From positions 1 to 64,000 of the forward strand of contig QFXI01000022.1 of the NCBI GenBank assembly GCA_003402315.1: a DNA stretch of 64,000 nt, given 5' to 3'. Made by a program: the position numbers and the translations under genes. Source of the DNA: Candidatus Nitrotoga sp. LAW. Its GTDB lineage: Bacteria; Pseudomonadota; Gammaproteobacteria; Burkholderiales; Gallionellaceae. The notes below the pieces were generated by a model that saw only the letters and a list, made by a program, of their open reading frames with translations, searched no databases and was not told where the DNA came from. Below, piece by piece: positions 2,318 to 57,973 of this stretch (positions within the stretch are counted from its first letter, which is position 1; the number at the start of each line of letters is the position of its first letter).

Positions 2318-2783
2318 TAACGCAGCTATAGATTCAGCTTATCGTTGCAGTTAATCCAACAGCCCAGCCCACATGGGCAAACCGACACAGTCGTTACAGT
2401 TCGACTATTATTTAACGATGACCCCAGGCACAGCCCAAACTATCGGTACCTATTAATCCGGCCAGGATATGTTTGAGCTTATCTGCCAGTCAAACCGCAC
2501 CGTAATGGCACCTCCCACTTCAAACTTCACCTGGCCGCATCAATAGTTTTGTTTAAAACTCTGAATTTTTAGAGGTGCCCTGTTAAGGTAGTAATTCGAG
2601 AGACTTCGCACACGATGAGATGGGTGTGATTGTGTGGAAACTGGATCCCGCCTATTTTTAATGGTTACCTAAGTTAAAATGATCAGCGTAGTTGTGGATG
2701 CCGGACACTTTTAAGCATTGTATTGTGTTTTTTACTTGGGATTTGGAAATGCCCCCCGATGATCGTTATCAAGGAGAGATTTG
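2318..2783. other. Intergenic region holding a mobile-element end fragment
   Basis: No gene can be supported here. The only recognisable content is a 32-bp repeat fragment at 2549-2580 shared with the MITE-like element near 39 kb. An octamer GGCACCTC at 2507-2514 is the inverse of GAGGTGCC at 2572-2579, so a short internally deleted copy of the element may occupy about 2507-2580. The promoter of the downstream thioredoxin-fold gene probably lies in the last 150 bp. Confidence 0.5.
2549..2580 (+). repeat. Right-end fragment of GGGCAYCTCT-ended element
   Basis: This 32-bp stretch ends in AATTTTTAGAGGTGCCC and matches 39085-39116 at 29 of 32 positions by direct comparison. In the complete copy (38976-39116) the matching segment is the right terminal inverted repeat. 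Here the interior is missing, and the right flank (TGTT) does not show the TTTA seen next to the complete copy, so it looks like a decayed or truncated insertion. Confidence 0.65.
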
Positions 2784-33544: not shown

Positions 33545-33639
33545 CAGGCTTCGGTCACGCTGTATTTGGTGTGTGCTGGAGAGGGTAGTAGTTGTTAATG
33601 TTGTATTTCTTTGAACTTTGATTACCAAAGGAGGTTGAA

Positions 33640-34080
33640 ATGGCAGCAGTACAGAAAGCTAAACCAGCAGCTAAAACCGCAGTGGCAGCCAAGAAGCCAG
33701 CCGCTAAAACCGCAGTGGCAGCCAAGAAGCCCGCCGCTAAAACCGCGGTGGCAGCCAAGAAGCCAGCCGCTAAAACCGCAGTGGCAGCCAAGAAGCCAGC
33801 CGCTAAAACCGCGGTGGCAGCCAAGAAGCCAGCCGCTAAAACCGCAGTGGCAGCCAAGAAGCCAGCCGCTAAAACCGCAGTGGCAGCCAAGAAGCCAGCC
33901 GCTAAAACCGCAGTGGCAGCCAAGAAGCCAGCCGCTAAAAAGGTCGTTCCTGAAAAGAAACCTTCTGTCCAAACTAAGACAGCTTCGGCTTCTTCGGCTC
34001 CAGCTCCTTTAGCTCCGACAACTGTGCGCCCGGCAGCAGTTTGGCCTTTTCCTACGCCAGGCATCAACAAGCCAAACTAA
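33640..34080 (+). CDS. Histone H1-like Lys/Ala/Pro-rich repeat protein
   Basis: A strongly basic 146-residue protein with ribosome-binding site AAAGGAGG. After a nine-residue start it contains eight exact copies of AAKTAVAAKKP, a ninth degenerate copy (AAKKVVPEKKP), then a Ser/Ala/Pro tail ending WPFPTPGINKPN. This composition is that of bacterial histone H1-like or AlgP-type nucleoid proteins, which bind DNA without sequence preference. The non-basic, tryptophan-containing tail is less usual. It lies 95 bp after nrdB. Repeat number probably varies between strains. Confidence 0.75.
   Translation: MAAVQKAKPAAKTAVAAKKPAAKTAVAAKKPAAKTAVAAKKPAAKTAVAAKKPAAKTAVAAKKPAAKTAVAAKKPAAKTAVAAKKPAAKTAVAAKKPAAKKVVPEKKPSVQTKTASASSAPAPLAPTTVRPAAVWPFPTPGINKPN
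33667..33930 (+). repeat. 33-bp tandem repeat, eight copies
   Basis: Eight copies of a 33-bp unit encoding AAKTAVAAKKP, differing only at a few third positions. Because 33 is a multiple of three, changes in copy number keep the frame. The same property makes several spurious frames open on both strands across this stretch. Confidence 0.95.
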
Positions 34081-38289: not shown

Positions 38290-38892
38290 TTAATATCCTA
38301 CCGTTCCTTTTTTTCTTATTCTTATATTAAAAGATATTGATATTCTTTCAATATCTTCCTGGTTTGGTTCGACTGAATGGGGCAACCAGGATGGGAACAT
38401 AACTAAATGATTTTTTCTTGCCGGATATGAAAATTTTGGCGCATTAATTGCGTTAAGCTCTGAAATGGGCGCTAAAGATTCTATCGTATATTGTTCCTGA
38501 AAATTTCTGTAAAACTCTATTTGAGCATCAGAGTCGGTAACGTAATAAGCACCCGATACAAACGATGAGCAATGAATATGAATTTTATTATAATTACTCA
38601 ATTTATTAATGTTTACCCAAACGTTATCCATATAGGTTTCGAAATTAACTTCATCATATCCAAAATCTGATAAACATTTTTTTGACCTGCGTAAAATCTC
38701 ATTCAATAAAGGCGTTAATTCTGGATGGTCGCCATAGTAAAACTCCTTTGATTGCCATCCCCCAGCATTACTAAGATTATTTCCACGTGGGTCGGATTGC
38801 TTCAATTGATGGCAAAAATTAAAAATGGCATCAACATCAATATCAAGCTTATCCCACCAAACGGGTGTCGAAAAATAGGTATCAAGGTTCAT
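38290..38892 (-). CDS. Putative 2-oxoglutarate–Fe(II) oxygenase (TIGR02466 family)
   Basis: A 200-residue protein with family marks GGWQSKEF, NKIHIHCSSFVSGAYYV and MFPSWLPHSVEPN...ERISISFNI. Iron ligands are probably in HIH (105/107) and H172, with R183 for 2-oxoglutarate; the exact assignment is inferred. Members occur in phages and marine bacteria; substrates are unknown. AGGAG lies ten bases before ATG 38892. The coding sequence is much richer in A and T than its neighbours and sits beside a MITE-like element, which suggests acquisition. Convergent with the SDR gene. Confidence 0.75.
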   Translation of the reverse strand: MNLDTYFSTPVWWDKLDIDVDAIFNFCHQLKQSDPRGNNLSNAGGWQSKEFYYGDHPELTPLLNEILRRSKKCLSDFGYDEVNFETYMDNVWVNINKLSNYNKIHIHCSSFVSGAYYVTDSDAQIEFYRNFQEQYTIESLAPISELNAINAPKFSYPARKNHLVMFPSWLPHSVEPNQEDIERISISFNIRIRKKGTVGY

Positions 38893-38975
38893 CGTTTCAC
38901 ATCTCCTGAGTTTCAAAAATCACGGGAAATTAAGCATACATAATGTGGTAACCAAAATATGCAGTTATAACTTTA

Positions 38976-39116
38976 GGGCATCTCTAAAAATTCAGATATT
39001 GTCACAATACGTTGTTGCTCACAAAAAATGTTTCCTTACATATCAGTTATATGCTGCGTCAACATTTTTTATTCGCGCCTAATCTTGTTTAGAACTCTTA
39101 ATTTTTAGAGATGCCC
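38976..39116. mobile_element. MITE-like element with GGGCATCTCT terminal inverted repeats
   Basis: A 141-bp non-coding element. The left end GGGCATCTCTAAAAATT is the exact inverse of the right end AATTTTTAGAGATGCCC. TTTA occurs immediately outside both ends (38972-38975 and 39117-39120), as expected of a target-site duplication. There is no coding capacity. The ends resemble those of IS5-type elements (inference), so it would need a transposase in trans. Fragments of the same family are at 2549-2580 and 57779. Confidence 0.8.
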
Positions 39117-39642
39117 TTTAATAAATGACTGAGCGAAAATATCGTACAGCATGGCAAGATTATACTTACTTGTTTCAATACGAAATACGTTATCCACTAA
39201 GTTTTTATGGTATTTATTGGCGCACTCTGCCTCCTTAGATTTAGTTGCTCATATAAGCCTTTGTTTGGGCATTATTAGACTTTTCCAGTAGCGATATTTT
39301 GTTTTTTGACTGGGAGTATTCACGATATATCGAATATTGGAAGGTATACGGTATCAACTTTACAGCGCCAATAAGAAACAATATGTTCAAACATCTGAGT
39401 CGCCGTCGTCGTGCTTTGGTGGATAAAAGAGCAGCTTGTAAAAGCGTCTTCAGGGCGATCTTCACGCAGTGTGCCCTGGCTTGTTAGATATCACAAACAA
39501 TGCTGAAAATATTGGTTTTTACGCTTTATCATCAGCATTGATGAATTGACCAAGCTGTGGTGTGGTACGCAAGTACGCCGGTGATATTCGCGCACGGTAA
39601 TCCCATGCGTCATTTAGTCATGAAGTGAGATGGATGGGCGAA
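39117..39642. other. Intergenic region of mobile debris
   Basis: No convincing gene. A 74-codon minus-strand frame (39241-39465) encodes a basic start and one hydrophobic stretch but has no recognised relatives. The right part leads into the IS110 remnant and may include more of its decayed 5' portion. Confidence 0.35.
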
Positions 39643-57475: not shown

Positions 57476-57973
57476 GGGCGAATATTTTTATAAATTCTGT
57501 TTAGTTGGCTGATTTTCAGACGACTCCTGAGGGTTTTCACGTAAAAGCAACTGATTTCTGGAAAATGGCGGGTCTGGAATTATTACCTGTGCATAGAGAG
57601 GTTTGATTCAATGGCACGTTGTTATGATACTACGCGGTACAGATAAGCTCCCTTCTTTAAGCTCTTCAGCTATTGGATATTTCTAAAAAATGTCGGTAAA
57701 TCGCACGGTACGGAAGCTTGAAGAAGATCGAAAAAGTATTGTAATGCCAGTGCAGTGCTGTACGTTAATTAGAATTTAGGGCACCTCTAAATAAATACTG
57801 AAAAAATGATTTCAAAAATAAATTCCGTCAAGAATGCGGCGCTGCACTATCCTTTTGTAATGCGCGTGGGGTTGGGGTGGGTAAATAGGTGATGGAATAA
57901 ATGGTTATAATAAGTGGTGAAGGATTGGGTTTTATTTTATTCAGCCCAAGCTACCGCGTTCAAAACACCTCCA
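57476..57973. other. Intergenic region with a solitary element end
   Basis: About 500 bp without a gene. It contains a left-end repeat GGGCACCTCT at 57779 preceded by TTTA, the same insertion context as the complete element at 38976. Nothing else was recognised. Confidence 0.5.
57779..57800 (+). repeat. Left-end fragment of GGGCAYCTCT-ended element
   Basis: TTTA-GGGCACCTCTAAATAAATACTG resembles the left terminus of the 38976-39116 element (GGGCATCTCTAAAAATTCAG), with the same TTTA outside. No matching right end was found before the next gene, so this is a one-ended remnant or the border of a diverged element. Confidence 0.5.

Follow-up and report, generated by a model that had tools for sequence, protein, structure and literature searches.

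A 141-bp sequence in the genome of Candidatus Nitrotoga sp. LAW is very probably a non-autonomous MITE that depends on an IS5-group transposase acting in trans, and an insertion sequence of the type that is intact in a congeneric genome (G008) is the likely donor of its ends. The MITE belongs to a family that is spread over an order and not only over its own genome, and the entire element, not its ends alone, evolves as one hairpin. The window, i.e. the whole stretch of 64,000 nucleotides that was analysed, corresponds to C22:1-64000 of an assembly of 2.81 Mb in 33 contigs, and the features identified in it are listed in Table 1.

Table 1. Features of the MITE and related sequences in the 64,000-nucleotide window
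Feature	Position	Strand	Basis
MITE copy, short class, 141 bp, imperfect palindrome end to end	38976..39116	+	ends, genome matches, folding
Left terminal inverted repeat, 17 bp exact	38976..38992	+	arm comparison
Right terminal inverted repeat, 17 bp exact	39100..39116	-	arm comparison
Target-site duplication TTTA, left copy	38972..38975	.	single TTTA in six empty congeners
Target-site duplication TTTA, right copy	39117..39120	.	extra A after TTTA compared with empty sites
Solo right-end fragment, same MITE family	2549..2580	+	91% over 32 bases
End-like sequence GGGCACCTCTAAATA following TTTA, without MITE interior	57779..57793	+	end-pattern match
Adjoining gene, putative 2OG-Fe(II) oxygenase	38290..38916	-	MITE upstream, about 60 bp from the gene start

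The earlier note had described a non-coding element of 141 bp whose inverted ends are exact over 17 bp and are each flanked by TTTA on the outside, and this description was borne out in full. The arms of the window copy (GGGCATCTCTAAAAATT / AATTTTTAGAGATGCCC) match exactly over 17 bp, an inverted-repeat detection that included one flanking base reported arms of 22 bases at 95%, and no ORF of at least 100 aa overlapping positions 38976-39116 was found. As single-stranded DNA the copy folds with -24.3 kcal/mol and z = -6.4, a value equalled by none of 200 shuffles, and the RNA folds of the two strands yielded z values of -6.4 and -8.0. A search of the whole window with a 15-base end pattern and up to two mismatches resulted in four matches versus 0.38 expected. 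Of the two additional ends that had been proposed within the window, the right end was confirmed as a solo end fragment. The left end at 57779 is an end-like sequence after TTTA, as had been claimed, but it represents a lone match and not a second copy, because the 200 bases starting there matched no MITE copy in the collected loci. Elsewhere in the window, positions 33555-34080 contain an ORF with tandem KPAAKTAVAAK (histone-H1-like) repeats, where long ORFs overlap in several frames on both strands.

The proposal that the element belongs to a dispersed family was substantiated by a search of the own genome, in which it is not single-copy: 30 related places were retrieved at E <= 1.2e-6 (43 initial candidates, 40 scored), and 24 of them possess both ends. 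The 4-bp flanks of these two-ended copies match at all four positions in 15 cases, at three positions in seven and at two positions in two. Both flanks conform to TNNA in 16 of the 24 copies, as do 11 of the 15 exact duplications; at least one flank deviates from TNNA in eight copies, and the target of the MITE is therefore less strict than the TTAA found at both G008 insertion sequence copies described below. With one mismatch allowed, the 15-base end pattern matched the own genome 60 times, whereas the reversed-pattern control yielded no match. The copies fall into two size classes of approximately 141 and 180 bp, the longer of which carries an extra block after base 24 or thereabouts.

A comparison with related genomes revealed unoccupied target sites. 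At the 38976 site the element is absent from the six congeners that could be aligned (G001, G003, G012, G013, G014 and G017), and each of them contains one TTTA instead of two, which answers the reservation that the flanking TTTA might have been a pre-existing repeat. The flanks of the two closest relatives, G003 and G017, are 92-97% identical to the window site. In relation to the empty sites, the occupied site has one additional A beyond a clean 4-bp duplication, for which a later 1-bp indel is the simplest explanation. A further six insertions were checked against G003, G017 and G015, and a single-copy target was detected in at least one relative at five of the seven insertions thus examined, the window site included; of the remaining two, C26:33823 corresponds to a larger gap and C26:40356 provided no alignable join. 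At the site orthologous to C17:58204, G017 is empty, and G003 retains both TTTA together with the last nine bases of the MITE. This footprint in G003 (G003:C32, L287) has the structure TTTA + GAGGTGCCC + TTTA and is explained by a deletion that joined the flanking TTTA to the TTTA contained in the right end.

The search for a helper was based on the NF033581 profile of IS5-type transposases with its curated cut-off of 140 bits; members of the IS5 group follow the target rule YTAR. In an even sample of 60 genomes from the family, 25 contained matches at E <= 1e-20, and 30 loci (L094-L123) out of a larger number of matches were subjected to an analysis of their ends. The congeneric genome G008 possesses an intact insertion sequence (L103) of 1,320 bp with an open frame of 376 aa, TTAA on both sides, the ends GGGCACCTCTATAAATAGTGG and GGGCACCTCTAAAAATTCATC and a transposase that scored 285.7 bits, above the cut-off. 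Its right end (GGGCACCTCTAAAAATTCA / GGGCACCTCTAAAAATTCATC) and the consensus end of the MITE are identical over a length of 19 bp, from which the window copy deviates only by having T instead of C at base 6. G008 contains a further full copy (L121), which is 99% identical to L103, carries a stop and is likewise flanked by TTAA. Additionally, a relative of 1,316 bp with TGAA duplications on both sides (L107) is present in G084, which belongs to another genus, and the helper elements have ends such as GGGCACCTCTATAAAT and GGGCACCTCTAAAAAT. Six other loci (L095, L096, L097, L099, L106 and L108) were ruled out as helpers by ends of another type, approximately GGAAACACTGAA, and no clear ends were found for most of the remaining loci among the 30. 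Pairs of MITE ends located 0.7-2.6 kb apart around other genes in the collected loci were rejected as insertion sequence copies, with the exception of L103, L107 and L121, because their flanks mismatch and their ORF starts, judged by eye, do not resemble those of transposases.

The G008 insertion sequence, used as DNA query, matched 11 of the 60 family genomes, mostly with fragments, and full copies of this type were present in G008 only. An intact helper was not found in the 33 contigs of the own assembly, in which copies may have been lost in gaps. The own genome contains a remnant at C30:330 that consists of a GGGC-type left end and a stop-ridden transposase, with a score of 141 bits in the genome search and 135.8 bits for the read-through fragment, on either side of the 140-bit cut-off. 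Among the transposase regions scanned in the own genome, this is the only one with an adjoining GGGC-type left end at up to three mismatches; no right end was found in 4,000 bases at up to five mismatches. A right-end piece of the insertion sequence is located at C9:284520, and further DNA matches were obtained at C11:13557-13899, C30:30023-30157, C21:60953-61073 and C9:110175-110338. The full insertion sequence with the same ends that the earlier note had suggested looking for thus exists as an intact IS5-group element with a 4-bp duplication in a genome of the same genus, but only as decayed pieces in the own genome, where, allowing for assembly gaps, the MITE at present seems to be without an intact helper.

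In the proposed mechanism, an IS5-group transposase supplied in trans would bind ends of the GGGCACCTCTAAAAATTC type, would cut out or copy the MITE and would insert it into AT-rich 4-bp targets, mostly TNNA, with duplication of the target. The likely donor of the ends would be the IS5-group element of 1,320 bp that is intact in the congener with its TTAA duplication. The G008-type transposase would probably recognise the MITE and move it in either the cut or the copy mode, and the family may continue to move in the own genome. A blastn comparison of the MITE interior with the interior of the G008 insertion sequence, run against the collected loci, revealed nothing in common; since the interiors share nothing, an origin of the MITE by simple internal deletion from the insertion sequence found was ruled out. 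A second, conventional kind of MITE derived from the helper is represented by L330 (G009:C31:43180-43511), an internal-deletion derivative of 332 bp that combines positions 1-162 and 1155-1320 of the insertion sequence and is flanked by TATA and ATAA without a clean duplication.

The distribution of the family was analysed with a 181-bp query in 61 genomes, comprising the own genome and 60 relatives, with up to 13 matches scored per genome. Matches were obtained in 29 of the 61 genomes: the own genome, 16 of 18 from the same genus, 11 of 18 from the same family and one of 24 from the same order; some of the distant matches, for instance that in G023, comprise the hairpin block only. The single match among the 24 same-order genomes outside the family is G051, a single-contig genome of 3.7 Mb from another family with 84 initial candidates and a best copy that is 89% identical. 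Horizontal spread is possible in the case of G051. Moreover, the core pattern was detected in at least 118 stretches of a named genome collection. The matches listed are assigned to Ca. Nitrotoga, Gallionella, Gallionellaceae, Sideroxydans, Nitrosomonas, Nitrosospira, Nitrosomonadaceae, Methylotenera, Methylophilus and Methylophilaceae, at higher rank to Nitrosomonadales, Burkholderiales, Betaproteobacteria and Proteobacteria, and in single MAGs to Formivibrio and Gammaproteobacteria. The 81 core matches analysed were taken from 80 of the at least 118 stretches, and 63 of them have both ends with up to six mismatches each; 42 of these two-ended matches are exactly 141 bp long, and 35 are flanked by an exact 4-bp duplication. 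No match to the MITE was obtained in plasmid and phage collections at E 1e-5.

A set of 119 full-length copies was reduced to 49 non-redundant rows and examined for dependencies between alignment columns. The strongest corrected mutual information among 9,870 column pairs was observed for the interior pair 55/88, which reads T-A in 22 rows, G-C in 11, A-T in four, C-G in two and G-T in two, and is unpaired in eight. Positions that face each other in a full-length hairpin (i+j = 142 or 143) account for eight of the ten strongest pairs and for 18 of the 45 pairs listed. In a permutation test on all 49 rows that ignored relatedness, the arms matched their own partners better than those of other elements, both within and outside the ends, and none of 5,000 permutations reached the observed value. 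Same-branch co-changes were counted on a tree of 47 rows, with L159 (reverse-oriented) and L024 (decayed) left out; the counts are conditional on a register derived from the palindrome in the same alignment, on a tree built from the same columns and on parsimony ties resolved by a fixed rule. Summed over pairs, the interior facing positions 20-62 showed 51 co-changes compared with 9.5 expected and 4-19 in 16 shifted registers, and 21 of the 51 led from one standard pair to another (G-T allowed), compared with 0-5 in the shifted registers. The ends (positions 1-19) showed 45 co-changes, of which 39 were pair-preserving, against 3-14 and 0-5, respectively, in the shifted registers. An exchange of arms by inversion was rejected as the source of changes from standard pair to standard pair, since inversion leaves a Watson-Crick pair as it was and turns G-T into A-C. 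It could account for part of the remaining 30 of the 51 interior co-changes.

The coupling of the arms reflects either selection on the folded DNA or RNA or a copying from arm to arm, and the data do not decide between them. According to the second, mutational explanation, template switching in the imperfect palindrome uses one arm as the template for the other. We consider this a serious possibility, just short of probable; it concerns the arms only and is compatible with the IS5-dependent explanation of the MITE. The coupling extends over the full length, including interior positions without an obvious role, and the 9-bp footprint of G003 at the C17:58204 orthologue joins the left TTTA to the right-end TTTA in the way that hairpin slippage would, while nothing decisive speaks against template switching and the data fit selection on the folded form equally.

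Another explanation holds that the hairpin is kept mainly for a role in the host, such as RNA processing, mRNA stability or termination, of the kind suggested for ERIC and Correia elements, and that transposition accounts for its origin only. The RNA hairpin is indeed strong (z values of -5.2 to -8.0 in all four folds, obtained from three copies), the compensatory changes extend along the entire MITE, crude ORF calls place 136 of the 137 copies analysed outside any ORF, and the median distances to neighbouring gene ends are 37.5 bp for 3' ends (n=158) and 60.5 bp for 5' ends (n=114). However, an orientation bias is absent, with 43 of 78 copies on the strand of codirectional genes, and the distribution of 136 copies over codirectional, convergent and divergent gaps (78/40/18) is similar to that of 237 element-free gaps in the same loci (146/58/33). 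MITE sites are empty in close relatives, neither a terminator-like site near the window copy nor a promoter-like site within it was detected, and no Rfam family was matched by the window at the gathering score or by a 180-bp copy up to E 1. In these comparisons no evidence for a host role was found, and we regard this explanation as improbable. That the inverted ends and TTTA merely form a palindrome by chance or belong to an intergenic repeat of the ordinary kind, TTTA being a cheap match in AT-rich flanks, is practically dismissed by the end matches in the own genome (60 versus 0) and by the exact length of 141 bp in 42 of 63 two-ended matches across genera, and was already refuted by the empty sites in relatives.

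The MITE as an IS5-dependent element shares only its ends with the IS5 family, has no transposase and uses targets, mostly TNNA, that are looser than the TTAA of G008. ERIC elements are imperfect palindromes, and the MITE resembles ERIC/IRU in its similar size, its long stem-loop and its mainly intergenic location; at this level of architecture it differs by its host group, its 17-bp exact ends, its 4-bp duplications and a visible helper of the IS5 type. Excerpts from published descriptions present ERIC/IRU as enterobacterial elements of 127 bp with a stem-loop transcript, mainly intergenic and found in more than one bacterial family (PMC2229807, PMC10969869), and the Correia/NEMIS elements of Neisseria as occurring in size classes of about 107 and 155 bp that differ by a 50-bp internal sequence (PMC2229807). 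The MITE likewise has two size classes, 141 and 180 bp, but its extra block is a separate dispersed hairpin of 39 bp. For REPINs, compensatory changes on both hairpin sides are reported (PMC3116915), and such changes also occur in the MITE arms; in contrast to REPs and REPINs, the 141-bp MITE has transposon ends and duplications, while its 39-bp unit is of REP size. By description, the MITE is also comparable to MITEAba12 of the Moraxellaceae, which an excerpt characterises as a MITE spread over a bacterial family (PMC10969869), with a similar taxon-wide spread in other hosts. No description of the present family was found in the titles and abstract openings listed from the open-access literature, and the MITE is a family new to the literature thus surveyed but of a known kind (cf. 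ERIC, Correia and REPIN). The nitrifying and iron-oxidising Nitrosomonadales thereby gain a counterpart to ERIC and Correia elements, and a probable helper transposase of this counterpart is in view. The family, with its large number of species, a short and a long size class, unoccupied sites and a footprint left by a deletion, is a good natural data set for distinguishing between selected and self-correcting hairpins. Of specialist interest are its persistence throughout an order at a constant length, the coupling of its arms and the 39-bp hairpin nested within it.

The 180-bp class consists of the MITE and the separate 39-bp hairpin, its extra block having the structure GCGAGCA-stem-loop-TTGCCTGC followed by 11 bases. 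The stem variants of the 39-bp unit in 43 contexts are compensated (GCCGC/GCGGC, TCCCC/GGGGA, TCCGC/GCGGA, TCTGC/GCAGA and GCCTT/AAGGC). Allowing up to two mismatches, 14 of 15 matches to the unit in the own genome fall within known MITE places. Among 60 Gallionellaceae genomes, 32 contain the unit and none matches the reversed-pattern control; one of the 32, G029, has no MITE match to the 181-bp query. The unit is exemplified by L091, L223, L332 and L351-L353, and in L089, L092, L334 and L336 the unit occupies other positions of the MITE. The spacing within three unrelated repeats was measured in the collected loci (1.67 Mb), where symmetric palindromes, at first counted on both strands, were recounted by place. 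The MITE spacing changes from 7 to 46 with the 39-bp unit (75 and 36 contexts), and that of CGTC-REP-like loops from 4 to 43 (two places each). The CTCCCCTTG/AGGGGAGG palindrome has a spacing of 1 (two places) or 2 (one place) when uninterrupted and of 41 when interrupted (four places). Only in the MITE is the increase by 39 firm; in the other two repeats it is derived from few places, and in the CTCCCCTTG/AGGGGAGG palindrome it is 39 or 40. These junctions are read as an entry of the unit after T and before C without duplication, and no GTAG/CGTC tag at the end of the unit was noticed by eye in the contexts examined.

Rather doubtfully, we suggest two nested hairpin elements: the 141-bp MITE, whose folded form as cruciform, single strand or RNA would matter to its persistence or would be enforced by arm copying, and the 39-bp unit, which would enter palindromes (the MITE, CGTC-REP-like loops and CTCCCCTTG/AGGGGAGG) by a different, duplication-free route. 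The pattern of the 39-bp unit would fit an insertion into single-stranded hairpins, e.g. by an HUH (RAYT/IS200-like) enzyme, and the unit is a test case for the spread of very short hairpins. As an excerpt of a published study reports REPs inserted within palindromes in other bacteria (PMC3733652), the unit is to be considered a lead and not a new class. At MITE position 24 or thereabouts, where the 39-bp unit is also located, L172 and L230 contain a different insert of 46 bp with a small hairpin. Furthermore, a CCTCTAWAAAT-like sequence with a different interior adjoins the 39-bp unit in L338, L339 and L341 and perhaps represents a second MITE family with related ends.
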